From Prunus persica (Eukaryota; Streptophyta; Magnoliopsida; Rosales; Rosaceae): a stretch of 64,000 nucleotides of DNA. The notes below the pieces were generated by a model. The model was not told the DNA's origin. It was given only the letters and a program-made list of their open reading frames with translations, and ran no database searches. A program made the position numbers and the translations under genes. The stretch is taken from contig NC_034011.1 in NCBI RefSeq assembly GCF_000346465.2, forward strand, positions 18,636,676-18,700,675, read 5' to 3'. Below are positions 4,513 to 58,470 of the stretch, piece by piece (the first letter of the stretch is position 1; every line of letters begins with the position of its first letter).

Positions 4513-4962
4513 CACTTAACATAGTCACATTAATAAGAATGAAAATTAGAGGCACATGCTCTTCCCTTTCTCTTACTAATCAATGATTTGACAAAACCAT
4601 GAGCATCCTCATATTTATGTATAAAACAAAGAAACTGACATTCTCCAATAGGTCTTTTAGTGGAAGATATGTTTCTTTGACTAAAATCTCAACAAAAAAC
4701 TGACATTCTCGAATAGGTCTTTTAGGATGGTAACAATTGAGATGATCTTCAAAAGCTTAATTTAAGGTGTAAATGTGTACGAAATTTTTAGTTGACAATA
4801 TACACCAGTAGTCAGTAGGATCCAGCCCAATTTGAAAATGTCTGCACTTCAAGCTTGAAAAGATCATCATCATTCATGTCTTAATTTCTCTAACATTTTT
4901 AAATGCTGATCATCCTAATCTCATAATGATGCAACAATGTAAAGCAGAAAAAGTATACCAGT
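4513..4962. other. 3' flank of a PEPR-like relic, displaced by the gypsy insertion
   Basis: Positions 4731-4962 match the spacer just downstream of the intact receptor kinase (40671-41376), including GATGATCTTC, CAGTAATCAGTAGGATCC-like text and the AAAGTATACCAGT end. The match resumes at 18879 on the far side of the gypsy element, so this is the left half of a target site split by that insertion. No gene is seen in 4513-4730. Confidence 0.75.
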
Positions 4963-6533
4963 TGTTTGGGCCCAAATTCGGCACGCCCAAAACCAAAAGA
5001 CAGGCCCATGATAAAATTGCCTGCTCAGCCCAGAGACTTGAGAAAAACAAAAATAAGATCCAGACAGATTGGGCTTCACACCAAGAATGTTGGAAATAAA
5101 GCCTCAGCCCAAAGAAAGCCCAAATGTGGAAACTTTCGAAATAGGCTTCAAAGATCAGCCCGTATTTTTTGTTAGGTTCAAACCCAAAGGATCAAAGACA
5201 CACCCACGTGATTGCCTCAACTTTGGAAAAGTCAGCAATTCCAACTAAAGTTTAAAAATGTGAGAGGGACGTCTCTGAAACACTGCCAATTGAAGATCAA
5301 AAACCCATCTGTGTTCGAGATTTTGCTCCAAATCAATACACCATCTCCCAAGGAATTCACGGATCACGCTTTCTAAGTTAGAACGGGAAACAGGGAACCA
5401 CTCAGAAAATACAAAAGAAAAAAAGAGCCAAACCGCCATAAAAAGCCCACCCAGACGGTAGCGTTGGTTGAATTAGAAAGCTGCCACCCAGGAAACCAGG
5501 GAAGGGACTGCTTTAGGAGATGACTGTTCAGAACCTATCTGCCTTGATTGATAAGAAATCCTTCTTACTTTACATTATAAGAAGATCTTTTTGCCGCCCA
5601 TTATTTAGGATTAAAAATCACCTCCCCAGGAGGGTCTCTTATAAAAACGAAAGTAGGCAAGGGAACAAAGGACACTCAATTCATCAATCAATAAAAAAAA
5701 ACAAACAAGAAAACAATCAAAAGCTCACTTGAATCCCAAGAGAAAAACAGCTTTAGATCAGAATTTCAAAGTTCAGACTTAGAAAATAAGTCTTTTGAAA
5801 ACGAGATCCCTCTCGTTACAAATTTGGTTTAGCAAAAGCCAAGACAAACATAGTTTGAGTTTTCACAAACATGAAAACCTCAACAAATTTTACAGCATAG
5901 TTCCAGCTTGCCAAATCCTCGAGAATAGCCACTTCTGTCCCTTCAAACTGAAGAAGCTGCAGTTCTGTCCGCTCAAAAGTCTCCCAAGGCTTAAAGTAGA
6001 TTGAAGCTCTGCCAGAATTGAACTTTGGTATCGATTTACAGCTGAAGCCAAGCAGCTAAAGTTGTTGACAGCACAGTCCAGCACAGACATACCCAGTCCA
6101 GCCCGGATCAGAAGTTTCTACCTAGGCAGAAATGGGATTCCAGCCATCTTTTTGTCTGTCTAGAGTTGATTTCTCCCTTCTTAATTTTGTAAAAGGCAGT
6201 TCTGCTTGAAACAGTCTACCTTATTATTATATATTCTGGCCAGAACAACCATTTGATACTGAGATAAATTATGAAAGTCCTCACCAGTCTGAGGCAAGAA
6301 AAGAACTTACTTGGGAGATATTCCTCACCCAAATTCACAATCATTTGTTTTAGAAGTCAGTAACTTGAGGCGCAAGTTATCCACTCTAAAAATAACTCTG
6401 CTAGAATTTTCATTACTAGCAGTGGCACGCTCACACACCAAAGAAAGCTGACTTGTCGACCAACCAGTGGTCTCCAAGCCAGTGGGGAACTTCGCCCTTC
6501 CACCTCAGGAGTAAACACGAAAACGGGTGAACA
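4963..6533 (+). repeat. 5' LTR of the gypsy element
   Basis: 1571 bp, TG...CA ends, near-identical to 17315-18878. A TATAAAA box lies at 5640-5646, which puts U3 at about 4963-5670. One clear indel against the 3' LTR is a 7-bp segment near 6031-6040 that is absent there. Confidence 0.95.
5640..5646 (+). promoter_or_regulatory. LTR TATA box
   Basis: TATAAAA in the context CTCTTATAAAAACGAAAG, conserved at 17994-18000 in the 3' LTR. It would drive the sense genomic RNA from about 25-35 bp downstream. Confidence 0.7.
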
Positions 6534-6534
6534 A

Positions 6535-6554
6535 TTTGGCACGCCCAGTGGGAC
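6535..6554 (+). other. primer binding site of the gypsy element
   Basis: TTTGGCACGCCCAGTGGGAC begins one base after the 5' LTR end, where a tRNA primer site is expected. It is not the common initiator-Met site (TGGTATCAGAGC). I do not assign the tRNA. Confidence 0.65.
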
Positions 6555-6632
6555 TTCTCAGTATACATACTCTGACAGAATCATTCACAGATTTACAAAT
6601 ACCGGAAGATCTAGTCAGAACCCACACCAGAT

Positions 6633-9600
6633 ATGGAGAAAAACAAGATGGTTATCAGGGAAGGCCTCGAGTCAGAAGAAAGCGATGCTAGGCAATCTGC
6701 CCACGGCAGTACAGGAAGTAGATGTTCCAGGACTGGCTCCAAAAGGATGAATCAAATACAGGAGTCAGTACTCCGACAAGAAATCACAGTACAAAGGAGC
6801 CAGGACACTCTCAATAACATGACAGCCATGATGCAATGGCAGGTTAACAGACAGTTCCGGAAGGACCGAGAATCCGCCATGGCCAGAATTCCAAACCCGG
6901 ATCCTATACTCCAGCAGTTAGATCTCCCGTATGGCCCTCCGCCGGGATTAACGTGGCCATATCAGGAAAATCCCCTAGTTGCACAGATGGCTGGAGTGCC
7001 AGACCACAGAGAAATTCAGACTGGTCCGAGGGAAGGAGCCCTTCCTAATCAAGAACATGAAGCCCCAGCTCAACCAGATAACCTGGCACTGGCTCAGAAC
7101 CAGCCAGAACCTCAGCCCATTCCACCTCATGTGGCCCCACATGATCAACCTTTGGCGCTTCTGCCTGAACCACCGGTAATATTGCCGTATAGACCCAGAA
7201 GGATGGACCCTAATCCATTCCCTCCACTTGCAAGAGGGAGGAGAGGCCGAGGAGGGAACAACTTTTTTGCTAATCATGACAGGAATAGACCGGGGGCAAA
7301 CTGGAGGAATCATCCAAAAGTCGAAGAGCAGGAAGAACACAGGGAGGAAGTTCCACCCAGACCACACAGAGCAGAGCCCAAGTTTGATTACGTTCAGCCA
7401 GAGCAGGGACAAAATCTTCCCCCCGTCAATGCTTTGAATGACATAGGAGCATTGCAAAGAATGATCAGAGAAATCATGGAGCCTGAGGCCAGAAGAGGGG
7501 AAAGGCCTACTTACAGAAAGCCATACCCAGCCTATATCGATCAAATACCATTGTCTCCAGGTTTCAAAGTACCAAACTTCACTCTGTTCAATGGGGAGGA
7601 CCCTCATGCTTCCTCAGTTGAACATATAGGCAGGTTCTCCGTCCAATGCATAGCTATTGAGAACAACCCTCTGCTGAAACTAAGGCTTTTCGGCAACTCT
7701 CTCTCTGGACAAGCTTTTACCTGGTACACCAGCCTGCCAGCTAACTCTGTTCAAACCTGGGAACAGATGGAAAATATCTTCCATGACTACTATTACAGGA
7801 TTCAGCTAGAAGTCACCATCAGTGATCTAGCTGCCCTCAAGCAAAGTGAAGATGAACCGGCCCAAGATTTCATAACCAGGTTCAGAAAGCTCAAGATGAA
7901 GTGCCGAATCCCTATGGAAGAAAGGCACTTCATCCAGATGGCCCAAGCCGCCCTTAAAATTTCTCTCAGGAAGAGGTTCGACGGGATATTGTTCGGAGAT
8001 CTGGCAGAACTGGCTGATAAGGCATCCAAATATGAGGAGTTACTCGGGGAAGAACAGCAAAGGAGGAACTCCTCCAAAGGTACATACTATAAAACCCATT
8101 CTTCTTCAGTCCACCTGATCGAGGTGGAATCACAAGAAGATGCAGAAGAATCAGAAGAGAAAGAGGTTTCAGTGGCAGAAATGGCAAAACTAAAACATCC
8201 CATTAATTGCAAAGCCCTCACAAAGCCACTACCATTCACAGGAGGATTCGTTCCAAACAAGCCAACACAAAACAAGGTCTACTCTTTCGACTTAACCAAG
8301 GTTGATGCCTTGTTCGACGAAATGCTACTGCAGAAGGCAATAGAAACGCCTCACAGAATACCGAAGCTGGAAGAACTCAAGGGCAGACAGTACTGCAGGT
8401 GGCACAACTCTTGGAACCATTCTACCAACAGTTGTGTTGTTTTCAGGGACGTGATACAAGAAGGGATAACGGCAGGAAGGTTGAAACTGGCAGAAAAACC
8501 ACCATCGGTCACAACGGATCCTTTTCCTCAACCTCAAGTCAATATGGTCAACTTAAATTGGCCAGAACAGAGGAAAACCGAGCCAATCACAGATGCTGGT
8601 TGCAGCAGAGGCAGAAGAATCATATGGGAGACCAGTCAAATACCAAGAGCGACCATCTCGGCTGGGGTAGTGCTCTGCAGTAGGTGCAAATGTGAAACAG
8701 AGCTAGAGGTGGTTCTAGACAGACAAAATCAGCCCACACCTAGTGTCTTTGACAGGATTGGAACCTCATCCCGAGACAAAACAAGGCAGAAGAGCTGTCT
8801 TAGGCCTACACAATACAGCGAGAGGAGGATGGAGCAACCCAGAAAGGAAATACCAGTCAAGACACCCGGAAACGAAAGACCCTTGGCAACGATCATAGAA
8901 GGGAGATGGTATTCTGTAGGAAGAAGCGGTAGACCGACTCTGGAGCTAACCAGAACTCAGAAAAGGAGAATCCACAGGCAATACTGCACATATCTTAAGA
9001 GCCAAGATGATACGCAGGTACGTTCACAATCCAGTTCTGCCAGGAAAGGAAAAAATCCTGAAACACTTCCCCAGACAGAACAGAAAGCTTGCCAGTCAAG
9101 GGAATTGCTGAAAACAGAACCGCCAGCCAGGTCTCCTATCCATGTAGCCTCGTCATCCAACAATCGTCCTGACACCACGCAGACACCAGACAAATCCGGG
9201 TCTACCCCGTTACAAGGAGAAGACGACTACGCTGAGGAATATGAAGAAGAGCAATTGGACTATGAACCTTCTGCAGATGATCAGAATGAGCCCCTCGAAG
9301 TAGCAGAGCAGGATGACTGGACGGAAGAATACGGGGAAGAATTAATGGAATTTGGTGAAGAATTGGACCCAGAAACGGAAGCTTTTGGCGCAGAATTAGA
9401 AGACCTCCTACAGGGTGATCTGGGAATTAATATGGTATTCATCCTACCAGGTAAATTCAGGGCTGCCGAGGGACAAGAAAGCACTCTGGAAGGAGATGTT
9501 TTCTCTCAAGAAAGCTTTGAATGTAGATTGGCAGAAGCAGAGGAGCTGCCAGAACCACAAGCAGACAACCCCAGGACAGGCGGAACAGCCAATAAACCAG

Positions 9601-10232
9601 CTTCAGAGCAACTTTGTTTCTCCAAGCCAACCAGAGAAATGGCAAATCACCTCAGGCCTTTGTTTATAACGGCAAATCTTGGGGGTATTCCTATTTCCAA
9701 GATCATGGTAGATGGAGGTGCAGCCATTAATCTATTACCCCACAGAATGCTGACCAAGTTGGGCAGAACAGAGAAAGATTTGATTCCAACACGATTGACC
9801 GTCATCAACTTCGCTGGGGGCATCACAAAAATACATGGCATCTTAAACGTTGATGTCATAGTCGGAAGCAAAGAGTTGAAAATAGCTTTCTTTGTGATAG
9901 ACACTACTTCCACCACCTACAATGCACTACTTGGCAGGGATTGGATTCACCAGAACCTTTGTATTCCTTCCACCCTCCACCAGCAGTTAGCACTATGGAA
10001 TGAAGAAGGCTGCATGGAGATTATAGAGGCCGATCCACGGCCATTCCTGCCCTCTGCCATGTGCTTTGAAGCAAGGTATTATCATGATGACCTCGGTCCT
10101 TTCACTTTCCTTGGAGTCAATCAGAACGGCCGCCCCCATGGTGTCACGGCCCAAAGACTCATTGAAGAAGGTTTAGCCAGTTCTCTAGAGGACTGGAATA
10201 GACCTTTTTGTGCTGAACTTCCAGAACTCTGA
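6633..10232 (+). CDS. gag-pro: gag-protease polyprotein (ORF1)
   Basis: 1199 residues from ATG 6633, the first good start after the PBS. The N-terminal about 290 residues are Pro/Gln/Arg-rich and of low complexity. Residues about 300-470 are the retrotransposon gag (capsid) domain, with LFNGEDPHAS, FTWYTSLP and AQDFITRFRKLK. Near residues 585-605 a CxxH...H...C motif (CRWHNSWNHSTNSC) takes the place of a standard zinc knuckle. Residues about 830-980 are acidic and variable. Residues about 1010-1120 are the aspartic protease, with the active-site variant VDGGAAINLLP (DGG in place of DSG/DTG, as is usual in Tat elements) and the second-half GRDWIH motif. The stop overlaps the next start as TGATG. 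The frame is open throughout. Confidence 0.92.
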   Translation: MEKNKMVIREGLESEESDARQSAHGSTGSRCSRTGSKRMNQIQESVLRQEITVQRSQDTLNNMTAMMQWQVNRQFRKDRESAMARIPNPDPILQQLDLPYGPPPGLTWPYQENPLVAQMAGVPDHREIQTGPREGALPNQEHEAPAQPDNLALAQNQPEPQPIPPHVAPHDQPLALLPEPPVILPYRPRRMDPNPFPPLARGRRGRGGNNFFANHDRNRPGANWRNHPKVEEQEEHREEVPPRPHRAEPKFDYVQPEQGQNLPPVNALNDIGALQRMIREIMEPEARRGERPTYRKPYPAYIDQIPLSPGFKVPNFTLFNGEDPHASSVEHIGRFSVQCIAIENNPLLKLRLFGNSLSGQAFTWYTSLPANSVQTWEQMENIFHDYYYRIQLEVTISDLAALKQSEDEPAQDFITRFRKLKMKCRIPMEERHFIQMAQAALKISLRKRFDGILFGDLAELADKASKYEELLGEEQQRRNSSKGTYYKTHSSSVHLIEVESQEDAEESEEKEVSVAEMAKLKHPINCKALTKPLPFTGGFVPNKPTQNKVYSFDLTKVDALFDEMLLQKAIETPHRIPKLEELKGRQYCRWHNSWNHSTNSCVVFRDVIQEGITAGRLKLAEKPPSVTTDPFPQPQVNMVNLNWPEQRKTEPITDAGCSRGRRIIWETSQIPRATISAGVVLCSRCKCETELEVVLDRQNQPTPSVFDRIGTSSRDKTRQKSCLRPTQYSERRMEQPRKEIPVKTPGNERPLATIIEGRWYSVGRSGRPTLELTRTQKRRIHRQYCTYLKSQDDTQVRSQSSSARKGKNPETLPQTEQKACQSRELLKTEPPARSPIHVASSSNNRPDTTQTPDKSGSTPLQGEDDYAEEYEEEQLDYEPSADDQNEPLEVAEQDDWTEEYGEELMEFGEELDPETEAFGAELEDLLQGDLGINMVFILPGKFRAAEGQESTLEGDVFSQESFECRLAEAEELPEPQADNPRTGGTANKPASEQLCFSKPTREMANHLRPLFITANLGGIPISKIMVDGGAAINLLPHRMLTKLGRTEKDLIPTRLTVINFAGGITKIHGILNVDVIVGSKELKIAFFVIDTTSTTYNALLGRDWIHQNLCIPSTLHQQLALWNEEGCMEIIEADPRPFLPSAMCFEARYYHDDLGPFTFLGVNQNGRPHGVTAQRLIEEGLASSLEDWNRPFCAELPEL

Positions 10233-11629
10233 TGTTTAGTCCCAATCAACTGGACAAGGATCGAGCTGCAACAATTCGATCCATCACAAAAAGATTGTTG
10301 ATATACTGGGGAGAAATGAGGTTTTTCATACAGAATCCAGCCATCAATATGGCAGAATTCACCCATGAAAGCACAAAAGAACAAGAGGAGGAAATTTTAC
10401 AGGAGGAAGTGTTAGATTTTGCACCGGCAGCACTAGATGACTCCCTGCCAGAAGTAGAGGATCCTCTACAGGAGATAAACTTAGGGACAGAAGAAGATCC
10501 AAGGCCTACTTTCATCAGCACACTGTTAAAGGAACCACTCAAGGCTGAACTCATGGCACTTTTGCAGGAGTTCAGAGATTGTTTTGCCTGGCATTACCAC
10601 GAGATGCCAAGATTGGACAGGCAGTTAGTAGAGCACAAGCTGCCAATTAAAGATGGCTACCTTCTAGTCAAACAGGCCAGAAGAAGAATGTCTATGGACA
10701 CAGAACTAAAGGTCAAAGAAGAGATAGAAAGGCTGCTCAAAGCAGGATTCATCAGGCCAGCCATCTATGCCGATTGGTTAGCAAATATTGTATCTGTCCT
10801 CAAAAGAAAAACAGGGGCAGTTAGAATCTGTGTGGATTATAGAAATCTGAATGAAGCATCTCCCAAGGATGAATATCCTATGCCAATGGCAGACATGCTA
10901 ATAGATGGAGCCGCTCATAACCAGATGCTATCTTTCATGGATGGCAATGCAGGTTATAACCAGATTATGATGGCAGAACAAGACATCCACAAGACAGCTT
11001 TCATGTGCCCAGGACATATAGGTGCTTTCGAATATACTGTAATGCCTTTCGGTTTGAGAAATGCGGGAGCCACCTACCAAAGGGCAATGAATTCTATTTT
11101 TCATGATATGATAGGACATTCCTTGGAAGTATACATAGATGACGTGGTGATTAAATCCCCTGAGGAAGGAAACCACGTAACAAGCCTAAGAAAGGCATTC
11201 CTAAGAATGAGGCAGCACAAACTAAAAATGAACCCCAAAAAATGTGTTTTTGGAGTCGAAGCAGGAAATTTCTTAGGATTCTTGGTCCACCAGAGAGGTA
11301 TAGAGGTTGACAGAAATAAAGCAAAATCCATCATAGAAGCTCTACCACCTCGGAACAAGAAGGAACTTCAAAGTCTCTTAGGAAAAATCAATTTTCTAAG
11401 GAGATTCATATCCAATTCTGCAGGAAAAATCCAACCTTTTTCTTCCATGTTAAGGCTGAAGCAGGAACAGACATTCAAATGGGAAGAACAACACCAACAG
11501 GCTTTCCAGGAAATAAAGCATTACCTCTCAAATCCACCAGTTCTGTCCCCGCCAAAAAGAGGCAGACCACTCCGTCGAGATCTTGGGAGATTCTATGCTT
11601 GTCCTAAAACAGATTGCTGGAGAATATAA
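10232..11629 (+). CDS. pol (RT): reverse transcriptase ORF, truncated at RNase H
   Basis: 465 residues from the ATG that overlaps the gag stop (TGATG). The linker (residues 1-110) leads into the RT domain at about 130-390, with RICVDYRNLNEASPKDEYPMP, FMDGNAGYNQI and the catalytic YIDDVVIKS at about residue 300, then the connection LLGKINFLRRFI. After PPVLSPPKRGRPL, where RNase H should start, the frame runs 17 residues of unrelated text to a stop. The next frame picks up near the end of an RNase H domain. A deletion with a frame change has removed most of RNase H, so this copy should not complete reverse transcription alone. Gag-pro is in another frame; reinitiation at TGATG or an old indel could explain that. 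Confidence 0.88.
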   Translation: MFSPNQLDKDRAATIRSITKRLLIYWGEMRFFIQNPAINMAEFTHESTKEQEEEILQEEVLDFAPAALDDSLPEVEDPLQEINLGTEEDPRPTFISTLLKEPLKAELMALLQEFRDCFAWHYHEMPRLDRQLVEHKLPIKDGYLLVKQARRRMSMDTELKVKEEIERLLKAGFIRPAIYADWLANIVSVLKRKTGAVRICVDYRNLNEASPKDEYPMPMADMLIDGAAHNQMLSFMDGNAGYNQIMMAEQDIHKTAFMCPGHIGAFEYTVMPFGLRNAGATYQRAMNSIFHDMIGHSLEVYIDDVVIKSPEEGNHVTSLRKAFLRMRQHKLKMNPKKCVFGVEAGNFLGFLVHQRGIEVDRNKAKSIIEALPPRNKKELQSLLGKINFLRRFISNSAGKIQPFSSMLRLKQEQTFKWEEQHQQAFQEIKHYLSNPPVLSPPKRGRPLRRDLGRFYACPKTDCWRI

Positions 11630-13181
11630 GTGTCTAAATCCTTCTCTGGCTGTATATCTAGTAGCAGATAGAAATCTGCTAACAGAATTTAGAGAAGCTA
11701 CTTGGGAGCACATCCCAAGGGAGGAAAACTTTGCAGCCAATGAACTGGCTCAGGTGGCATCAAGCATACAAATGCCCGAAGACTGCGTCCAAAGGATCAT
11801 CAAGATAGGAAGGAAAAGTCTACCATCTGTTTTGACTAGAGGAATGGAGATAGAAGTCAATTCTGCCTTGATCACTGAAGATGATTGGAGGGAGCCTATC
11901 ATGACTTACTTACGATATCCCACTCTGCCCTCTAAGAAAAGAGTCAGAATCATGGCTACAAACTACCTCATGTGGAATGAAGATTTGGTCCGAAAAAGTA
12001 AGGATGATGTACTATTAAGGTGCCTCGGGAAGACAGAATATATGAAAGTCATGGGAGAAACCCATGAGGGGATCTGTGGAGCTCACCAAGGGGGAAGGAA
12101 GATGTGCTGGTTAATCAGAAGGTATGGCTACTTTTGGCCAACCATGATGAAGGATTGCATCAACTATTCCAAGGGATGTGAGGCCTGTCAAAGGCACGGC
12201 CCAATCCAGCAGGCCCCTTCGGTTCCCATGAATCCAATGGTAAAACCATGGCCTTTTAGGGGATGGGCAATGGATCTCATTGGCAAGATCTATCCAGCCA
12301 GCAACCAGCAGCATTGTTTCATTATTGTTGCCACAGACTACTTCACCAAATGGGTGGAGGCTAAGCCAGTAAAAACCACAACATCTCAAGAGATCATCAC
12401 CTTCATAGAAGAACAGATCATACAAAGGTTTGGCATTCCAGAATCAATCACAACTGATAGGGGTTCTTCTTTCATATCTAGAGATATGCTAGATATGGCA
12501 GAAACATTCAAATTCAAACTGCTTCAATCTACTCCTTACTATGCTCAAGCTAATGGACAGGCAGAATCAAGTAACAAGGTGATTATCAATATCATCAGAA
12601 AAATGCTAGAGAAGAATCCAAAGCAGTGGCATGAGAAGTTATCAGAAACTTTGTGGGCATACAGAACTTCAAAAAGAGAAGCAACTGGCATGACCCCCTA
12701 TGCTATAACCTACGGCCATGATGCAATTATTCCCATGGAGATAGCAGTCCAGTCTCTTAGAATTGCTCACCAGCACGGTCTCACTGGGGAGGATTACTCT
12801 CACGCCATGTTGCTAGAATTGGAAGAATTGGATGCAAGCAGAATTGACACCCTCAACAAACTCTTAGCAGGAAAACAGGCTGTGTCAAGGGCCTACAACA
12901 AAAGAGTCAGAAACAAGAGTTTTGAAGAGGGAGAGATAGTCTGGAAGGCAATTCTGCCCCTTGGAGCACACATAGCTGGATATGGGAAATGGTCACCTAC
13001 ATGGGAAGGCCCTTTTATAATTAACCAAATCCTCGGAATGGGGGCATACAGGTTGCAGGACCGAGATGGAGTTGTTCATTTTGCCCCAATCAATGGTAAA
13101 TGGTTAAAGAAGTTCTATCCAACCATGTGGGATTCGCAGGCTGTACAAACAGATCCCGGGATAGAAGAAGAACAAGATTGA
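11583..13181 (+). CDS. pol (IN): RNase H tail plus integrase ORF
   Basis: 532 residues in the gag frame, overlapping the RT ORF by 47 bp. The first about 65 residues (GDSMLVLKQIAGEYK ... ENFAANELAQVASS) are the tail of an RNase H domain whose front is missing. The integrase follows: an HHCC zinc-binding region (HEGICGAHQ ... GCEACQRHG), then the DDE core with Asp in WAMDLIG, Asp in TTDRGSSF and Glu in NGQAESSNK. The C-terminus has the GPF/Y-type module (SPTWEGPFIINQILG) and no chromodomain. The nominal start is only the first start-like codon in the open stretch; the protein would normally be released from a pol polyprotein. Confidence 0.9.
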   Translation: MGDSMLVLKQIAGEYKCLNPSLAVYLVADRNLLTEFREATWEHIPREENFAANELAQVASSIQMPEDCVQRIIKIGRKSLPSVLTRGMEIEVNSALITEDDWREPIMTYLRYPTLPSKKRVRIMATNYLMWNEDLVRKSKDDVLLRCLGKTEYMKVMGETHEGICGAHQGGRKMCWLIRRYGYFWPTMMKDCINYSKGCEACQRHGPIQQAPSVPMNPMVKPWPFRGWAMDLIGKIYPASNQQHCFIIVATDYFTKWVEAKPVKTTTSQEIITFIEEQIIQRFGIPESITTDRGSSFISRDMLDMAETFKFKLLQSTPYYAQANGQAESSNKVIINIIRKMLEKNPKQWHEKLSETLWAYRTSKREATGMTPYAITYGHDAIIPMEIAVQSLRIAHQHGLTGEDYSHAMLLELEELDASRIDTLNKLLAGKQAVSRAYNKRVRNKSFEEGEIVWKAILPLGAHIAGYGKWSPTWEGPFIINQILGMGAYRLQDRDGVVHFAPINGKWLKKFYPTMWDSQAVQTDPGIEEEQD

Positions 13182-13371
13182 CCCTTTTTGTTTCTTGAAA
13201 AGAATCTTGTTTAGATCTGTTTTTGCTTTAAAGTTGTTTTGTTTTTACTTTCAAAGCCGTGTCCGGTTACTGCATCAAGAATAAATAAAAAGCAGTAAAA
13301 TGCTTTGAAAGCTTATATAAAAATAGCCACCTTCGCGGCAAATTATTCGAACAATAAAAAGAAAGAAGAAG
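13182..13371. other. convergent 3' spacer between integrase and the antisense gene
   Basis: 190 bp separate the integrase stop from the stop of the minus-strand gene. AATAAATAAAAA at about 13281-13293 could serve as a plus-strand poly(A) signal. The minus strand has A/T-rich text such as TTTTTATTGTTCG past its stop. The two transcription units are tail to tail. Confidence 0.5.
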
Positions 13372-16300
13372 CTAAAATCCTAGTTTTCTAAGAGTCTCCT
13401 GCAGGTTCGCCTTCTTGACAGAAAGCTCTTTCTGGAGCAGCACCCCCTGATGAATTGAAGCCTCTGCAATTTCCAAAGCTGGCCTGGAAGCTGCAACCAT
13501 ACTTTGCACAAGGAAAGTAGCCTTGGTTTTAGAACTCAGTCCAGCCCCAACCCTGCTCTGCACCTCCCTGCATTCTGCCAGTTGTTTTTGGAGCTCTTCA
13601 ATCTGCTTCTCCAGCTTGTCCGCAGTGGCCCTGGCTTCCTTGTATCCGGCCACCATCTGATCCAGTTCTGCTTTCTGCTTTGCAAAATCAGCCAGGTTGG
13701 CTTCATGAGTGGCCTTGCAGAGTTCAGAAGTCTTGAAAGTAGGCCTGAGATCCTCATAGCGATCATGTAGATTGAGCACATCTCTGGTCAAGCTTAGGCC
13801 CATCTCAAGAATAGGCTTTGGAGCCATGTTCTGTCTGTGAAGCAGGTCCAGGTCCTTCATCAGCTGATTTAAGGCTTCATTGTCTTGATCAAACTCCAGC
13901 TCATTGAACTGCCAGATTTTCAACCTCTCCATGGCCTCCTCCACTGCCCTAGATTTTGCCTTGCCTGGAGGAGAGCTGAGTTTCTCCAGTCTGTCCAATT
14001 GGGCATCCAGATCCATGGCTTCAAACTCTTCAAGTTCTGGATCAACAAAAGAAGCCGTGGCAGATGACCCTGGAAGGGAATGAATGGGCATCTGCAAGAA
14101 GAAAGCATAAGTTACAGACCAGGCAGAAAATGGAAAATAAAGGCCCAAAAGATGTGAAGACTTACAGCAACAACGGGAGGCTTCAGGGGACTGGTCACCG
14201 CTGCCAAGACGCCAACGGCTGTAGGCACTTCTACCTGAAAAGGCGACAACAGTTAAAAAAAAAAGGGGGGAGAATTGCAGGAAAATGTGGACAGATAAGA
14301 AAGAAGGTTACCACAACCACAGGGGCAGCAGCGGTTGTCTCCACTCCAGCCTCCGGAACTACAACAGACAGTTCTGCCTGATCCACAGGCTCTGATGCAG
14401 ACTGCTTCCCCTGATCCTCAGCCGCTGGAACGGCAGTAGAGTGCTCTGCCTCGGCATCCTCAAATAAGGCCAATTCTGAGCTAGTCAGCTCAGCCCTTGG
14501 GCCCCCTTGTTGCTTCTGCGCCAAGGCAATGCTCTCTGCAATCACCTCAGCAGGGATCTCCTCCTACCAAAACAGAGGTCAGAACAGAAGGAATGGGGCA
14601 AGAGGGGAACTGATGCGAATCACAGAAATAAAACTTACCTCTCCTTCCACCACTGCCGTTTTCTCCTGAGGCGTCTTTTCCAGCCCTTCCTGTTCTTTTT
14701 CCTGCTCCACCTCCTCAAAAGCCTCTCGCAGCTCTTCATCCGTCCCAGAGGTAATAGTGGGAACTGATGCCGTTTCTTCCGCAGCAACATACTCCTCCTC
14801 ACTCCTCTTTTTGAGTTTTTTCAACTTGGTAGGAGGAGGGGAAGGACTTCCAGCTGCACAGAACAAAAAGCAATATTAGGGAAAAGAAGCCAAGGCAGAA
14901 TAAATCTAAAGGGACTGGGTGGAACATCACAAGCTTACCTGAAATACCAGGCCGCGTGGTATTGTCCGAAGGGGGAGCAGGTCCTTTTCTTTTTCTTCTG
15001 CCAGAAAGAGCGGCCTCAGCAGGGGTTTGTTCTGCCTGGACCTCATCTCCTTCATCTGCAGAAGGGAGCTCCAAGTCCCCGACAGCTATAACAGAAGAGA
15101 CTGCACCAAGGCATTAGACATTAGAAACCAATCCAGCAGGAAAAGACAGAAGAGAATTAAAAAGAAAAAGACTTACCAATCACTTCTCCAGCATGAACAG
15201 ACTGCCCACCTACGCTGGTCAAAGAAGGATCTGATACAGGCAGAATAGACATTAGAAATCAATCATCAAGACAGAATGAATCCCAGACAGAATCAGAGAT
15301 CTACCTTCTATGATTTGTGCGTTGATGTCTTTGATAGTCTGGATCATGTGCGTCTTGGCATCCCCATCCGCAAAAATGGCCCAGTGCACCCAACCATCAA
15401 AAAGCACCTTGAGAGCAGTAACTGAAGCAGGCAGACCCTGGAATTTGGCTTTCCACCATGCGTCAAAGTCAGCAGAACTGCAGGAATTCAGCTCCCACGA
15501 GGGATAGAGGGCATCCGTGCTATTGTTGATTTTGTTCACTGCACACCGAGCATCCTTGTGCACCTCCAGATCATCTGCATCCCTCCAAGAAGAGGCCTGG
15601 TTACAACTCCGATATGATTTTCGCGGAATGAGCTGGGGACAACCAAGCTGCCTTGCGCAGAAGTTGGGATGGTAGACTTCTGCCCCCAGATGATAGTTGG
15701 GAGGTTTGCCCCCACCATGGGGTAGATCTCTGGGCAGAGTAATGCTCGGAAATTTCCTCCTGAAGTCTGTTCTGGCAGCTTCATCTTCTGGCTCTTTCTC
15801 AAATAACCAAAATCCGGTCTGGAACCAAGGATAGGTCCTCTTGATCACCACTTGCCACTGAGCTGCCGACCTTTTTGTACAATGCCTGAAGAGCATCAAA
15901 TACTCCTCAATAGAATGCTTGGGCACTTCTGCCGACATTAAAGGAAGCGCCAGGACTTGGTCTTCAGGCAGAACTATGTCTGGGAACCTTAGTTCTGGAA
16001 AGTAAACCTGCAGCCAGATCTGGATCATCCAGAATGCGCCAGGGGCTGACAGGTTCAGTGGATTCTCCAGGGTAGCAGTGTGCAGATTCTTGAAAAGGTG
16101 AGCCAGAACTGTAAGCCCAAGCCCCACATCAGTATGGTTGTGAAGTGCTTCTGCCAAGTGTCTGTACTCTAGCAGAACTGCAGAAGACCGATTGGGGAGA
16201 ACGAACCGATTCAGCCAATACAGAAGGAACAACATGTGTTGCTGATCCTTGTCCTTCTCAGCACTGAATTTCTTCAGATAGTTGGAGAAAGAGCAGTTCT

Positions 16301-16968
16301 GGTTGATCACGGCTGGAGAGATAGTAAAAGGAGTGGCCACTTTCTCTTGATTCCGTCGCCTGTGATAATCTCCAACGGTATCAACAGGCCTACCATGGGG
16401 CCTGAACGCAAAGATCTGGGCCATGTCCAACAAGGTTGGCGCCATAGGACCCACACAGAAATCAAATGTATTGCTGGCAGAATTCCAAAAGCATAAAGCA
16501 GCGGCAAGCAGACTCTCATCTCTGTTAACTGACTGCTTGGATAGAAAAAATGGCGTCATAAATCCCAGCTCTCCTCCAGTGACCCCCATATCTCGGGAGG
16601 AGTCTATCAATCCAGTCTGCCCATTTGACCGGACTGTTCCTCACCTTGCTGGACGGGAAGGACCGACTCAAATTCTTGCTGACCCAAGAATAAGAAGCCA
16701 GGGCAGAAGAACTCTCAAAACATAAAAGAGCCTCGGCATCCTTTTTTAGCAATTCTGCCATCTCAGCTGGAACAGGACCAAACCAGTGAGGCCCTAACAC
16801 CAGGGTGTTCTCGAACAAATGAAGGACATTCTCGTCCAGATTCTTTTGGGCAAAGGGATGAAGCTTGCTCCTGATTTCTATCGCGTGAGCATCAATCCCG
16901 CTCCCGGTGATATAGTCAGGAGGAACTGGAGCGGAAGAAGACTGAGCGCGGGACCTTGGGGAAGACAT
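13372..16968 (-). CDS. antisense seven-exon plant mobile domain (PMD) protein carried by the retrotransposon
   Basis: Exons (minus strand): 16968-15305, 15230-15177, 15085-14939, 14853-14639, 14563-14312, 14234-14166, 14091-13372. All six introns are GT-AG and 74-91 bp, and every junction keeps frame (phases 1,1,1,0,0,0). Exon 1 starts at ATG 16968 (MSSPRSRAQSS) and holds the PMD fold: WADWIDRLLPRYGGHWRRAG, DESLLAAALCFWNSAS, MAPTLLDMAQIFAFRPHGRP. Exons 3-4 hold basic NLS-like GRRKRKG and KLKKLKKR, then Glu-rich text. Exon 7 is a long coiled coil (ADKLEKQIEELQKQLAECRE). One extra base in the A6 run at 16545-16550 shifts frame inside the PMD. Exon lengths sum to 3121, that is 3 x 1040 plus one, so a single base separates this from one open frame of about 1039 residues. 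PMD proteins of the MAIN/MAIL type are nuclear; the function here is unknown. Confidence 0.85.
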
Positions 16969-17314
16969 TTCTGATTCAGGGGAAGAAGCAGAAGAAAGGA
17001 AGGTCTGAAGAAAGCTATGGAAATCTCGAAGAAAAGCTCGCAGGAACAAGAGTCGGAAGGTTTAGGGTTTTCTTTTCAGAGGCTATGAATTTGAATTTCT
17101 TTTAAAGAGGGGCTCGAAAACATGGGAAGAAGAAGATGGGACGGCACCTGATGTTTATTAGCTAGTAACTAGCTAATAACTAGCCGTTTTTCCCACGAAC
17201 TCTAGTTCGTAGCAGGCAAACGTGGGCGAAAACACGGAAGAAACTGGCGCGCGAATTAAATGGCAAAACATTAAGTCTGAAACCGTTCCAAAACGATTCA
17301 GACTTAGAGGGCAT
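16969..17314 (-). promoter_or_regulatory. candidate promoter of the antisense gene, and PPT of the element
   Basis: Upstream of the antisense ATG the minus strand has a telo-box-like AAACCCTAAA (17061-17070) and a TATA-like CTTTAAAAGAAA near 17100, both usual for plant gene promoters. On the plus strand the purine stretch AGAGGGCA just before 17315 is the likely polypurine tract. About 345 bp carry both functions. Confidence 0.5.
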
Positions 17315-18878
17315 TGTTTGGGCCCAAATTCGGCACGCCCAAAACCAAAAGACAGGCCCATGATAAAATTGCCTGCCCAGTCCAGAGACTTGAGAAAAAC
17401 AAAAATAAGATCCAGACAGATTGGGCTTCACACCAAGAATGTTGGAAATAAAGCCTCAGCCCAAAGAAAGCCCAAATGTGGAAACTTTCGAAATAGGCTT
17501 CAAAGATCAGCCCGTATTTTTTGTTAAGTTCAAACCCAAAGGATCAAAGACACACCCACGTGATTGCCTCAACTTTGGAAAAGTCAGCAATTCCAACTAA
17601 AGTTTAAAAATGTGAGAGGGACGTCTCTGAAACACTGCCAATTGAAGATCAAAAACCCATATGTGTTCAAGATTTTGCTCCAAATCAATACACCATCTCC
17701 CAAGGAATTCACGGATCACGCTTTCTAAGTTTAGAACGGGAAACAGGGAACCACTCAGAAAATACAAAAGAAAAAAAGAGCCAAACCGCCATAAAAAGCC
17801 CACACAGACGGTGGCGTTGGTTGAATTAGAAAGTTGCCACCCAGGAAACCAGGGAAGGGACTGCTTTAGGAGATGACTGCTCAGAACCTATCTGCCTTGA
17901 TTGATAAGAAATCCTTCTTACTTTACATTATAAGAAGATCTTTTTGCCGCCCATTATTTAGGATTAAAAATCACCTCCCCAGGAGGGTCTCTTATAAAAA
18001 CGAAAGTAGGCAAGGGAACAAAGGACACTCAATTCATCAATCAATCAAAAAAAACAAACAAGAAAACAATCAAAAGCTCACTTGAATCCCAAGAGAAAAA
18101 CAGCTTTAGATCAGAATTCCAAAGTTCAGACTTAGAAAATAAGTCTTTTGAAAACGAGATCCCTCTCGTTACAAATTTGGTTCGCAAAAGCCAAGACAAA
18201 CATAGTTTGAGTTTTCACAAACATGAAAACCTCAACAAATTTTACAGCATAGTTCCAGCTTGCCAAATCCTCGAGAATAGCCACTTCTGTCCCTTCAAAC
18301 TGAAGAAGCTGCAGTTTTGTCCGCTCAAAAGTCTCCCAAGGCTTAAAGTAGATTGAAGCTCTGCCAGAATTGAACTTTGGTATCAGCTGAAGCCAAGCAG
18401 CTAAAGTTGTTGACAGCACAGTCCAGCACAGACATTCCCAGTCCAGCCCGGATCAGAAGTTTCTACCTAGGCAGAAATGGGATTCCAGCCATCTTTTTGT
18501 CTGTCTAGAGTTGATTTCTCCCTTCTTAATTTTGTAAAAGGCAGTTCTGCCTGAAACAGTCTACCTTATTATTATCTATTCTGGCCAGAACAACCATTTG
18601 ATATTGAGATAAATTATGAAAGTCCTCACCAGTCTGAGACAAGAAAAGAACTTACTTGGGAGATATTCCTCACCCAAATTCACAATGATTTGTTTTAGAA
18701 GTCAGTAACTTGAGGCGCAAGTTATCCACTCTAAAAATAAGTCTGCTAGAATTTTCATTACTAGCAGTGGCACGCTCACACACCAAAGAAAGCTGACTTG
18801 TCGACCAACCAGTGGTCTCCAAGCCAGTGGGGAACTTCGCCTTTCCACCTCAGGAGTAAACACGAAAACGGATGAACA
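17315..18878 (+). repeat. 3' LTR of the gypsy element
   Basis: 1564 bp, matching 4963-6533 with few differences and ending GATGAACA right before the target duplicate CCAGT (18879-18883). Confidence 0.95.
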
Positions 18879-18883
18879 CCAGT

Positions 18884-20216: not shown

Positions 20217-21344
20217 TGTCACGGGATGAGCGAGCAGCGCAGCAAGGCCGAAGAGAAACACACATTTAGCCACTCAAAACACACCCGTGCGGCCCAGGAT
20301 CCCTTAGGATCTCAGTCAGCCTTCTCCCACTTCATGATATTCATGACTATCACAACTCCTCGAGAGGTTCACCATCAAATGTTTTCTCCTATGGGTGCCA
20401 CGCCCCATGGGTAGACAACGAGTCACACTACCTTGTGACAATACATCACTCCGCATCCGATAACGAACCTTCGACGCCCATAAATCAAGCGTTGCATAAG
20501 ACACGTTAACTGCATCGACCATGTTGTATGCTTAACTCGTGGCTCGCTCATGCCCATGTCAAGACACAGCAATCTAACACACCATCGGTTTACCCACACT
20601 TCTGTTGGTCATTCCGTTAGCAACCAAGATAGCCCACATCCTCAAGCTATACACGTAAGCTGTCATACTTGCATGTCGCCCAAGCCTTGGCTACATATGT
20701 ATTTCGAATGTCCCACATAATCGTCTATGCATTGCATGGGGTCACAACCCATGAGTACCTGCATCCGAATATCTTCCTTCCATATTAGACAAGGCCGAAC
20801 CCAAGCCAAGTCCTTTGAGTATTGTCAAATGCCTCGCTTGCCAACAACATAGTGAATGCCATACGTTGACCTCACTTTTCACAACAATACGCAATACAAA
20901 CAGTCTGGCGTGTTCGTACTGTCCTCGGGAATCCTTTCCCTCAGAGACATAGATTATCCTTCAACAATATTATGCCTACCCATATGACTACCTCCAATGT
21001 CATAAGGATGCTCGCTTAGTGCCACAAGGGTGTAGCACTAGGAGTGGTGGAGAGCATGACACCATGTCACCACCCTATATAGCATTTTATGCATTTAGCC
21101 TTCTGCCAGGATGAAACATCACCTATGCATGAGGAGTCATAATTGGGCATAACTCTTTCATACAAACTCCGAATTACGAACTGTTAGTTGCGTTGTTTGA
21201 GTCTCAACATCACAAACGTCCCAGTATTCTTAGCTTCCTTAGGTTCCTACAGTAACCTTCGGAAATACCCAAAATACACTTCATGTGTGCAACCCGGCCG
21301 ACTATGGAATCATAATAGCACTCACTTATGTGCGATCCGTGACA
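20217..21344 (-). repeat. LTR (3' side in element orientation) of the LARD
   Basis: Homologous over its length to 26776-27916, for example GTTTTCTCCTATGGGTGC versus GTTGTCTCCTATGGGTGC, with a polypurine tract abutting at 21345-21356. Confidence 0.85.
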
Positions 21345-21356
21345 TTCTCCCCCACT
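21345..21356 (-). other. polypurine tract of the LARD
   Basis: The minus strand reads AGTGGGGGAGAA directly before the LTR start TGTCACGG, as needed for plus-strand priming. Confidence 0.75.
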
Positions 21357-21789
21357 GATAGTGGCGACATCCTCGTCGACATGCCAACTGCACTGCCGCA
21401 TAACACCACCATATAGGAATATCCTCTTTTGCTCTCTCCATGGACCACAATGCACCACTGTGTTCACCTTTTTCAACTTCTCTCAAAGTTCCACATCTTT
21501 CCCTCTTCGGGTCGAGACCTCTATTTCTTTTCGCACTCACCTTAAGGTGCCTCAACAGTAAAGTTCCACAACACTTAGGCCATCACAATTCACTAAGTTA
21601 GGTATCATCCCTACTACGAGTAGAACCATGTACCTATGAACGCCCAAGCTCGAACTCGACAGAACCACTTCCATAGCATCCACATGGGAACAAGTAAGAT
21701 GTCGACATCCAAGTTATTTTAACTTTGTCTGCCATCAAATGTGGACATACTCCATATTCTTAGCAACCATGCTCACAAGTAAGACTCCG

Positions 21790-21821
21790 GGAGGTCTGTC
21801 TGGGTTTTCTTTGCTTATTGG

Positions 21822-21856
<35 letters not shown>

Positions 21857-24800
21857 AATACAGATCCTACCTACCTCCCAAAAACAATTAAGAGATGAAA
21901 CATAGAGAAAATCTTACTTTTTCTCTCTATTATTCACAAGTTCCAGATTTGAAAGAAATAGTGAAAATCATTTAATTTCAAGATTTGAGTGAAATGTTTC
22001 ACCGAAAATGTATAAATATTTTTTTCACAAGTTTTTTCACGTATATACAAAAAAGGAAAACTAATTATGACCTATTTAGTTTACAAAACTGAAGGATTGT
22101 TCATAAAAATACCTTAAAAACAATTCTTCCTCTTTCGGGAAAAATAATTCATCTCCAATGTTGAATGCCTTAACTTTTTGTTTTCCTATCCAAAACTTCA
22201 GCCACGATGAAATAAAGAAATTCCGCATGTCAGTTCCCATTTTTCAAAACGATCGGACTTATCTCCAGCAACGAGTTCCTTATCCCCTTTCTACTGATAC
22301 TAATCCCTCCAGACCTGATCACATCACCAGACTCACCAATCCATCTCCCACCTGATCACCAACTCCTTCTCCACGCTTCCCACAAACATTAAAACCCCCC
22401 AAAAAAATAAAAAAAGTAAATGCATAAACATCTTTATAGGTAGATGAATGAGTTGCTTGGGTTTTTGTTGTGGTGCTGCAAATTGACCACGTCAACCCCA
22501 TGGTAAATTGTTTTTTGTGCATCATAGTTTGATCAAACGATAAATAATATAATTATATATGAAATTTTATTTTCTTTGTTTTGTTTGGTTGCTGGTTACT
22601 AACTTACTAAGCTAGGCTCACTCATGGTATGGAATATATGATTGATGGAATCACCTCAGTCAGGAGAAAGTTATAGTTGACCATAATGTTTATCAATACA
22701 ATACCACAAGTTACAGGAGTATAGACATATGCATGCAGCAGAAACACATAGAGACTCATAGACAGACACCATACATACCCCAGATAAAGAGAAATTTGAC
22801 TTTGAAATTTATACCGTAGAAATAAATATCCTATCTAATATCATCTTCTGCGGATTTAATATCATAACAAGTGGGAATTCCTATCTAGCTATCATTGTTG
22901 AAATTTTGAGTTTCAATCGGCTTTCAACTCTCCCACCTTTAGTTTTCAGGGTTCCTGCCCGGTGTGCCTTTACATTAAGGTATGTCTGGGTTTTCTTTGC
23001 TTCATGAAAATGAAATAAAGATCCTATCTACCTCCTAAAAGCAATTAAGAGATGAAATAGAGAGAAAATCTTACTTTTTCTCTCTACTCTTCTCAAGTTC
23101 AAGATTTAAGTGAAACAGAGAAAATCATTTAATTTCAAGATTTGAGTCAAATTTTTCATAAAAAATGCATAAATATTTTTCCACAAGTTTTTTCACCTAT
23201 ATACAAAAAAGGAAAACTAATTATGACATATTTTGTTTATAAAACTGAATGATTGTTCATAAAAATACCATAAAAACAATTCATCTCCAATGTTGAATGC
23301 CCTAGCTTTTGTCTTCCTATCAAAAACTTCAGCCACGATGAAATAAAGAAATTCCGCATGCCAGTTCCCATTTTCAGAATTATCGGACTTATCTCGAGCA
23401 ACGAGTTCCTTACCCCCTTTCCACTGATACTAATCCACCTCTATACCTGATCACATCACCAGACTCACTAACCCATCTCCCACTTGATCACCACCTCTTT
23501 CTCCATGCTTCCCACAAACATTAAAATCCCCCCAAAAAATAAAAAAAGTAAATGCATAAACATCTTTATCTGTAGATAAAGGAGTTGCTTGAGTTTTTAT
23601 TGGGGTGCTCCAAACTGACCACGTCAACCTCAGGGCAAATTTTATTTTATGCATCATAGTTTGATCAAATGATGAATAATGCAACTATACATGAAATTTT
23701 GTTTTATTTGTTTTGTTTGGCTGTTGGTTACTAACTTACTAGGCTAGGCTCAATCATGGCATGAAATAGATGATAGATGGTCTCACCTCAGTCAGGAGAA
23801 AGTTATGGATGACCATAATGTTAATCAATACAATACCACAAGTTATAGAAGTATAGACACATACATGCAGCAGAAACACATAAACACACACAGAAAGACA
23901 CAAGAAAAGACCATACATAAACCCCAGATAAAGAGAAATTTGACTTATGACTTTGAAATGAGTTTCAATACCGTAGAAATAAATATCATATCTTACATCA
24001 TCTTCTGTGGCTTCAATACCGTAGTAAGTGGGATTTCTTCGCTGGCTATCATTGTTGAGATTTTGAGTTTCAACTGGCTGTTAACTCTCCCACTTTTTGT
24101 TTTCAAGGTTCCCGCCTGGTGTGCTTTTACATTAAGGTATGCCTGGGTTTTCTTTGCTTCTTGAAAATGAAAGAGAGAGATGAAATAAGGATCCTATCTA
24201 CATCCCAAAAGCAATTCAGAGATGAAACAGAGAGAAAATCTTACTTTTTCTCTCTATTCTTCACAAGTTCTAGATTCGAGCGAAACAGAGAAAATCATTA
24301 AATTTCAAGATTTGAGCGTAATTTTTCACTGAAAATGCATAAATATTTTCTTCACAAGTTTTTTCACCTATATACAAAAAAGGAAAACTAATTATGATAT
24401 ATTTTGTTTATAAAACTGAATGATTGTTCATAAAAATAATTCATCCTCTTTCGGGAAAAACAATTCATCTCTAATGTCGAATGCCCTAGCTTTTGTCTTC
24501 CTATCAAAAACTTCAGCCACGATGAAATAAAGAAATTCCGCATGCCAGTTCTCATTTTTCAGAATTATCAGACTTATCTCGAGCAACGAGTTCCTTACCC
24601 CCTTTCCACTGATACTAATCCACCTCTAGACATGATCACATCACCAGACTCACTAATCCATCTCCCACGTGATCACCACCTCCTTCTCCACACTTCCCAC
24701 AAACATTAAAATCCCCTCAAAAAATAAAAAATAAAACGCTTATCTTTATAGGTAGATAAATGAGTTGCTTGGGTTTTTGTTGTGGTGTTGCAAACTGACC

Positions 24801-25545
24801 ACGTCACCTCATGGGAAAGTTTATTTTGTGCATCATAGTTTGATCAAATGATGAATAATACAATTATACATGAAATTTTATTTTTTTCTTTTGTTTGGCT
24901 GCTGGTTACTAACTTACTAGGCTAGGCTCAATCATGGCATGAAATGGATGATGGATGGCCTCACCTCAATCAGGACAAAGTTATTGGATAACCATAATGT
25001 TTATCAATACAATACCTCAAGTTACAGGAGTATAGACACATGCATGCAGTAGAAATATACAGAGACTCATAGATAGACACAAAAGAAAAGACATTACATA
25101 AACCCTAGATAAAGAGAAATTTGACTTCTGACTTTGAAATTTTGAGTTTCAATGCCGTAGAAATAAATATATGCGACTTCAATACCGTAGCAAGTGGGAT
25201 TTTTTACCTGGCTATCACTGTTGAGATTTTGAGTTTCAACTGGCTATCAACTCTCCCACCTTTAATTTTCAAGGTTCCCACCCGGTGTGCTTTTACATTA
25301 AGGTTTGTCTGGGTTTTCTTTGCGTCTTGGAAATGAAAGGGAGAGAGAAAGTGAAGGAGAAAGAGATGAAATAAAGATCATATTTACCTCCCAAAAGCAA
25401 TTAAGAGATGAAACAGAAAGAAAATCTTATTTTTTCTTTCTATTCTTCCCAAGTTTTAGATTTGAGTGAAACAGAGAAAATCATTCAATTTCAAGATTTA
25501 AGTGGTGAAACACTCCGTCGTTCTGAATATCAGTACGCAATCTTA
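21790..25545. repeat. tandem array of about 1.16 kb units inside the LARD
   Basis: The landmark TCTGGGTTTTCTTTGC recurs at about 21799, 22985, 24143 and 25308, giving three full units and a partial fourth. Each unit repeats the same order: GA-rich stretch, TTTTTCTCTCTATT, CAAGTTTTTTCAC, CCACGATGAAATAAAGAAATT, AAACATTAAAA, GACCACGTCA, CAATACAATACC, GAGTTTCAA. The units differ by scattered substitutions and indels, so the array is old. Flanking text at about 21560-21790 recurs at about 25980-26170. No conserved reading frame crosses the units. Confidence 0.88.
21827..21853. repeat. (GA)13 microsatellite
   Basis: Perfect GA run at the start of the first array unit; shorter or absent in later units. 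Confidence 0.95.
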
Positions 25546-26761
25546 TGTCAAACATTGTGCATCAACTACATGTTCTCCACAACGACTTACTGAAGCCTAG
25601 CCCGTCAGCGACTTACCCTCTTAATGAAGCCTAGCCCATCAGCGACTTACTTCATTCAAAGACTGCACTGTTTCGGTCTTGAGCTCCCACAACTCTTCCC
25701 CGAACAAAGGTCTTGCACCATCCGTTCAATACTCATCACCGACTTCAACACAACCATCAATGGCATGTGATGGTTCGAGTATTGCCAATCTTCGGCACTC
25801 TCACCAAACTTGCGTTACCATCTTTCTCACATCTTGGCCTTGAACACGCAACATCACTATGTCAACCGTGTGTCCTCCAAGGCACTTTCATTCATTTGTG
25901 CATATGCGTTGTCATACCTCAATGACATTCGTGGGTCTCTCCCACTTATCTCGTCGATGCACCCTCACGTCAATGTACCTCCGAAGCGAAGTTCTAAAAC
26001 ACTCAGGCCTTCACAATTCACCAAGGTTTGATGTCATCCCTACTACGAGTGAGCCACCTAACCAACAACAAGGGAACAAGTAAGACATCCACACCTAAGT
26101 TACTCCAACTTTTGCCTACCATTAAGTGCGGACATACTGTATACTTAGCCATCATCCTCACAAGAAAGACTCTAGGATCCACTTTTGGAACACTCCAGCA
26201 TTTCGAATATTAGTTAACAACCTTATGTCAAACATTGTGCCTCACCCACACGTTCTCCACAATTGTAAGAGCAACCACTTAGGTGACTCCTGCATTAAAG
26301 CTTAGCCCTTTAGCGACTTACTCCCTCAATGGGTCCTAGTCCATCAGTGACTTGTTTCGGAGATTGTACCCTTTCAGTTTTTTGCCATTACAAATATTCC
26401 CTAAACAAGGGCCTTGCACCGTCTGTCCAACACTTGTTACCAACAGAGTTTGCCACATCTTAGAGCCATCCTTCTTGATGCATTCTCAAAACTTCAAGGT
26501 GAACTTTTGGATACCTTCACCCGTTAATAGGTTCCAGCACCAAGACGGGTTTCCATGAACCGTCACATAATCTGATTCCAACAATCATCCATAGTGACGT
26601 TGGGTTCTTCACCCAACTTCACAGGACCACTACCCATCACAGGCAATGACCTGCTATCTCAGTTCTTCCATCACCAATCTCTTCTAGGTAGGAATCCCTT
26701 ACACCGAAACCACCTTGTGGGTGTGAATCGTTTGAGCAGAAGCCACCATCTGAATCGATTA

Positions 26762-26773
26762 GCTCTAATACCA
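26762..26773 (-). other. primer binding site of the LARD
   Basis: The minus strand reads TGGTATTAGAGC two bases inside the LTR end at 26776. It matches the initiator tRNA-Met primer site TGGTATCAGAGC except for one base, and it fixes the element orientation. Confidence 0.8.
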
Positions 26774-26775
26774 CT

Positions 26776-58251: not shown

Positions 58252-58470
58252 GCTTTCTAATGAGTTGAAGAAAATTACTCGGTAAAAATATGAGCTTTAC
58301 TGTCAGCAATGCAAAGCCAGCTGCTGTAAGCTCTCAAGAAGACCCAGCATGCAGATTGAACTTGCCTTTGCAAAGCCTGAAATGAGTTGGAAGCAGAGTG
58401 GAAAATGTAGTGAGAGAGAGAGAATGGGTATGTTGGGTTGGCTTTTCAGTTTGTGCTTCAATAAGATATT

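Follow-up and report, generated by a model that had tools for sequence, protein, structure and literature searches.

A predicted seven-exon plant mobile domain gene on the antisense strand of a decayed Ty3/gypsy retrotransposon from peach

How might an LTR retrotransposon come to carry a gene with six introns? A December 2025 review describes plant LTR elements as generally intron-free, with Ogre and EVADE as notable exceptions (PMC12786077; papers are cited here from extracts of their text except where a main text is named), and an earlier review calls for a search for antisense and spliced transcripts (PMC7264820). The question is raised by a stretch of 64,000 nucleotides of Prunus persica DNA (contig NC_034011.1, positions 18,636,676 to 18,700,675), here called the window, in which an original prediction had placed a plant mobile domain (PMD) gene on the antisense strand of a retrotransposon. 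Our preferred reading, to which we assign a probability of roughly 0.65, is that the locus is a decayed copy of a Prunus Tat-type (probably Ogre-like) Ty3/gypsy family with a layout like that of an ambisense virus.

The host element is a 13.9-kb Ty3/gypsy LTR retrotransposon, recognized by its paired LTRs, its target site duplication CCAGT, and the location of RVT_1 upstream of rve. Its parts, in window coordinates, are as follows.

4958..4962, no strand, left target site duplication CCAGT
4963..18878, plus strand, whole LTR retrotransposon insertion (TG...CA LTRs, matching 5-bp target site duplication)
4963..6533, plus strand, 5′ LTR, 1571 bp, aligned to the 3′ LTR
6537..6554, plus strand, putative primer binding site with a TGG start, directly inside the 5′ LTR
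6615..10232, plus strand, gag and protease ORF (Retrotrans_gag E 6.8e-12; gag-asp_proteas E 0.0022, below cut-off)
10217..11629, plus strand, reverse transcriptase ORF with a truncated RNase H start at its end (RVT_1 E 3.5e-26)
11517..13181, plus strand, second half of the additional RNase H, and integrase (RVT_3, Integrase_H2C2, rve)
13372..16968, minus strand, antisense PMD gene, from the ATG at 16968 to the stop, between integrase and 3′ LTR
17315..18878, plus strand, 3′ LTR, 1564 bp
18879..18883, no strand, right target site duplication CCAGT

The LTR pair differs by 22 mismatches over 1,563 aligned sites (K2P 0.014), which at assumed rates of 1.3e-8 or 7.7e-9 gives an age of 0.55 or 0.92 million years, respectively. 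The RNase H region is incomplete. The RT_RNaseH_2 match covers only positions 1 to 31 of a 100-position profile and falls below the cut-off, the RVT_3 match covers only positions 61 to 122 of 123 and lies directly before the integrase, and within window positions 11500 to 11640 the beginning of RNase H passes directly into the middle portion of the additional RNase H. We read this as a deletion through both domains, which would have removed RNase H together with half of the additional domain. Given this fusion, the copy would be unable to make a complete RNase H. Because RNase H is missing and the frame of the PMD gene is also broken, as described below, the copy is probably dead, a slightly decayed member of its family.

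Several other features lie elsewhere in the window. Direct repeats about 6.5 kb apart and 84 to 87% identical delimit positions 20217 to 27804 and enclose four tandem units of roughly 1.16 kb (21792 to 25504), an arrangement suggestive of an older LTR element that contains tandem repeats. At 1778 to 2267 there is a short array of tandem repeats spaced 55 and 95 to 96 bp apart, and the minus strand carries two ORFs, each about 1,000 aa long, for LRR receptor-like kinases (41780 to 44761 and 55291 to 58296) and a Plant_tran (PF04827) transposase-like ORF (49613 to 50449, E 2.5e-82).

The antisense gene is convergent with gag-pol. As originally predicted, this minus-strand gene lies between integrase and 3′ LTR and comprises seven exons and six GT-AG introns, with its ATG at 16968 and its stop at 13372.

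15305..16968, minus strand, exon 1, encoding the N-terminal part plus the PMD; its frame is broken within a T-run near 16547
15231..15304, minus strand, intron 1, 74 bp
15177..15230, minus strand, exon 2
15101..15176, minus strand, intron 2, 76 bp
14939..15100, minus strand, exon 3, with a basic RRKRK run
14854..14938, minus strand, intron 3, 85 bp
14639..14853, minus strand, exon 4, with a basic KKLK/KKR run, then acidic
14564..14638, minus strand, intron 4, 75 bp
14312..14563, minus strand, exon 5, linker
14235..14311, minus strand, intron 5, 77 bp
14166..14234, minus strand, exon 6
14092..14165, minus strand, intron 6, 74 bp
13372..14091, minus strand, exon 7, coiled-coil-like tail

Two details of the prediction needed correction: the introns span 74 to 85 bp rather than 74 to 91 bp, and the exons are not all in frame. 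Codons 1 to 140 and the later part of exon 1 use different open frames, and owing to this change near 16547 the exon sum of 3,136 nt is not a multiple of three. The break is either a mutation or a homopolymer base-calling error, which are indistinguishable here. Exons 2 to 7 form a single continuous frame of 1,472 nt, stop included. The introns contain 44 to 50% T, and the exons contain 16 to 31%. Introns 1 and 2 (window 15101 to 15304) are alike (z of 5.2 with 200 shuffles; the other 14 of the 15 intron pairs have z of at most 2.5), which suggests that a small tandem duplication may have occurred around exon 2.

Since the full frame in the window copy requires passing over the break in exon 1, the gene might be an artefact of prediction, a set of chance open frames linked by chance GT-AG pairs. 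We used dynamic programming to search for the longest frame obtainable by splicing, starting at exon 2, with 100 dinucleotide shuffles as the null; the donor patterns were picked after the gene had been seen, and the same patterns were applied to the shuffles. The span from exon 2 to the stop yielded 1,469 open nt with five introns, a length reached by none of the 100 shuffles (mean, 365; maximum, 1,139), and the opposite strand of the same span yielded a longest spliced frame of 401 nt. Exons 2 to 6 alone gave 803 open nt (shuffle mean, 329; maximum, 623). With the spliced frame beyond all 100 shuffles, chance splicing was rejected. Related proteins align over the junctions and the PMD is matched at E 4e-33, which also argues against an artefact; that explanation is largely refuted and hardly tenable. 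The antisense gene is very probably a real spliced protein gene of the element family, as judged from its sequence.

To place the gene among its relatives, the read-through protein served as the query; 7,994 candidates were scored, and 82 passed the threshold of E≤0.001, comprising 79 named Prunus, 2 Malus, and 1 rice. Twelve of the 82 are at least 980 aa long. Eleven of these are of the same family (985 to 1,048 aa) and stand for 56 sequences, 40 of which are represented by P0002; the twelfth, P0078, has 36% identity and is not of the same family. At junctions 1 to 6, respectively, 47, 52, 41, 54, 49, and 53 of the 82 relatives align on both sides, and 47, 52, 41, 52, 45, and 52 of those do so without an intron-sized insert. 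These relatives are gene models whose basis is not visible, and homologous DNA would give the same predicted introns without real splicing; we take the counts as demonstrating conserved sites and frame, not splicing. The eleven long relatives cover 52 of 66 junctions; the remainder either stop short or are missing the zone. P0005 reads the zone of exons 2 and 3 in a different frame, pieces are missing from P0011 and P0012, and identity in the vicinity of junction 5 is low in several relatives (5 of 16 in P0002, for example). In P0086 (571 aa, 27 sequences) exon 1 is unbroken and the model reads on into intron 1; its identity to the window is lower in the residues encoded by the intron (11 of 16) than in those of the exon (511 of 554; Fisher p 0.007).

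The two Malus proteins, which share 96% identity, differ by a stretch of 24 codons at the codon aligned with intron 1. We infer that this stretch may be a 69-bp phase-1 intron, retained in one protein and removed in the other; if that is right, intron 1 predates the Malus-Prunus split. This bears on whether the gene is a passenger, that is, a host PMD gene recently captured by the family and carried without use. The introns point to capture either as DNA or in antisense orientation relative to the carrier RNA, and PMD-B and PMD-C genes exist in host genomes (PMC5418596), both of which would suit such a capture. It is at odds with the many divergent relatives across several Prunus species and with distant Malus relatives that have a possible intron at the same codon, and some PMD clades are reported as Gypsy-only in the extract of PMC5418596. 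We regard a recent, unused capture as very unlikely.

No MAIN, MAIL, or named PMD-A, -B, or -C reference appeared among the 82 relatives or the best 120 of 201. A search with the exon 7 tail (7,981 candidates scored) matched only Prunus, in 75 of 75 cases, with no tie to the tails of other lineages at this sensitivity. Scanning IMG/VR with P0086, where records near the window's genome are possibly excluded, gave one pattern match and no encoded relative. Three oddities among the gene models are of separate note. P0076 (P. persica LOC109949604), whose integrase is 95% identical to that of the window over 340 aa, has integrase and PMD joined on the same strand; it looks like a rearranged locus or a chimeric model and is at odds with a simple antisense picture. 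P0083 (P. brigantina) joins a Ca2+-ATPase model to the coil at the exon 7 start (residue 1055). The name "autoinhibited Ca2+-ATPase 11" is attached to many PMD models of P. dulcis, perhaps a misannotation that has spread.

Conservation is unevenly distributed along the protein. Mean pairwise identity, over the 36 pairs among nine sequences (the window and eight models), was 0.826 for the N terminus, 0.845 for the PMD, 0.665 for the linker, and 0.862 for the coil; the lower linker value may stem partly from low complexity and alignment, and the measure differs from dN/dS. Higher identity in the PMD and coil than in the linker is not as predicted by uniform neutral decay, and it speaks for selection having acted on the protein at some point in the history of the family. 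We consider it likely that the antisense protein is maintained by such selection.

The same profile weighs on the idea that the locus works as RNA, with convergent transcription giving rise to double-stranded RNA and to small RNAs that restrain the element or are exploited by host surveillance. Tea has 175 PHAS loci at PMD genes, and the phasiRNAs from these loci target PMD genes (PMC10673657, the extract of which leaves it unstated whether these genes are element borne); moreover, antisense transcripts of LTR elements can set off silencing (PMC7264820, PMC12786077). A role as RNA alone does not account for the protein-shaped conservation (about 85% in PMD and coil versus 66% in the linker) or for the one frame that continues across the junctions. 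We judge this explanation unlikely, and RNA and protein roles are compatible and could coexist.

The PMD (PF10536) was found on the window's own sequence, in exon 1 downstream of the break, at E 4e-33 and 115.5 bits against a curated cut-off of 34.9, in keeping with the prediction; the first 140 codons alone gave no Pfam match at E≤0.01. The predicted NLS-like segments have counterparts in basic runs (RRKRK at residue 608, KKLK/KKR at 639 to 642) and the coiled coil in heptad-like spacing at about residues 948 to 993, but the acidic region is only mildly so: the linker has 19% D/E and 8% K/R, and the coil itself has 17% D/E. An AlphaFold2 model of P0002 (40 sequences) was poor (mean pLDDT, 43.2); it shows the PMD as helical, the linker as unstructured for the most part, and the tail as long helices. 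No solved structure matched the PMD profile at E≤0.1. Pfam matches in the tail, Mis12 and five others, were all below cut-off and were treated as generic coil. Transposase_28 (PF04195) was absent to E 5 in seven family and distant proteins and, in a scan of the window that covered exons 1 and 7, absent from the post-break part of exon 1 and from exon 7 (E 0.1) and from the first 140 codons (E 0.01).

Motifs that could serve the antisense gene lie upstream of its ATG, in sequence that does not belong to the 3′ LTR.

17061..17106, minus strand, candidate antisense core promoter (motif matches, weak by themselves: TTTAAA at 17106, telo-box-like AAACCCTAAA at 17070-17061)

The telo-box-like AAACCCTAAA occurs twice in the window, versus 0.31 expected, and is weak evidence because two or more copies were found in 3 of 100 shuffles. 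A promoter and terminator scan of 16900 to 17400 found none, using bacterial-type models that are uninformative for a plant.

Under our preferred reading of an ambisense-like family, gag-pol would be transcribed from the 5′ LTR and the antisense gene probably from a separate promoter located between its ATG and the 3′ LTR. Six splicing events would then give a protein of about 1,045 aa, predicted to consist of a plant mobile domain, a linker with basic and acidic stretches, and a coiled-coil tail, and other copies of the family would carry the gene at the same place. The introns would be kept because, being antisense, they appear in the genomic RNA as CT...AC rather than GT...AG and are copied intact. 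Antisense orientation thus explains their survival, but the claim that introns persist only when antisense was too strong, given the sense introns of Ogre and EVADE (PMC6317226, PMC12786077). The protein might enter the nucleus and act in trans as an accessory factor tuning the element's own transcription or silencing; we give a nuclear accessory regulator about even odds. That it specifically counters MAIN/MAIL1-type silencing seems somewhat unlikely. The boldest version, in which Rosaceae Tat elements have been ambisense for tens of millions of years and a nuclear PMD mimic disrupts the host MAIN/MAIL1-PP7L complex, is decidedly unlikely; were the mimic reading true, the silencing factors of the host and the weapon of the element would share descent from one domain.

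A defined seven-exon antisense gene supplies exact junctions for testing, and its relatives provide concrete proteins for asking what the PMD does in elements and hosts. ORF surveys blind to splicing would fragment such genes and lose the tail.

The closest known systems share parts of this arrangement. In angiosperms, the PMD-A1 and PMD-A2 proteins are encoded only by Gypsy elements (PMC5418596), and a PMD borne by a Ty3/gypsy element is what the window holds; orientation, intron number, and tail structure are not given in the extract of that paper. In one survey the PMD was the most frequent atypical domain, occurring in ten species and, under a looser filter, in 40 (PMC9289625). MAIN and MAIL1, which have the PMD in common with the window protein, are host factors with silencing roles in Arabidopsis (PMC5418596, PMC7156037), as the prediction had stated.

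Ogre is a Tat-type element, as the window element probably is, with a PMD and an extra gene beyond gag-pol, and a PMD-bearing gene is present in the window. An additional RNase H placed between RNase H and integrase marks the Tat lineage; of this arrangement the window copy retains the RVT_3 half-domain before its integrase, with most of RNase H and the other half gone. PMDs are present as extra ORFs in 57% of Ogre elements, in a survey of ORFs of at least 250 codons called with getorf (PMC6317226), to which a spliced gene would be visible only as its long exons. Ogre primes from a tRNA-Arg primer binding site (PMC9289625), and its gag-protease and RT ORFs are spaced by an average of 274 bp (PMC6317226). 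That spacer is read as an intron, whereas in the window the gag-protease stop and the ATG of the next ORF overlap as TGATG at 10230 to 10234. Such an overlap could permit stop-restart translation of pol in place of the Ogre intron. For extra ORFs, these papers cite the survey of Steinbauerova 2011.

Antisense extra ORFs in Tat-lineage elements were already in print, as the prediction had stated: antisense coding regions were found in every Retand cluster studied (PMC11963269). Retand TRP28 and maize Grande gene23 resemble the window gene in lying antisense between pol and the 3′ LTR (PMC11963269, PMC7264820), and gene23 has an antisense promoter and a nuclear protein product (PMC7264820). Smc and Mis12 domains are reported for TRP28 and gene23, and the window gene has only a weak, below-cut-off Mis12 match; its N-terminal domain is a PMD, and exons 1 and 7 gave no Transposase_28 match. 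The word "intron" is absent from the main texts of both papers. HBZ of HTLV-1 also comes from a retroelement antisense gene and is a nuclear regulatory protein (named in PMC11963269). HTLV-1 is, however, an animal retrovirus. The HBZ transcript is spliced.

Gypsy-borne PMDs and antisense ORFs are in print, and our incomplete search of the literature, including the partial texts cited, found no description of a multi-intron antisense PMD gene. Set beside these systems, the gene seems to be a known kind of accessory gene whose orientation and exon count seem under-described.
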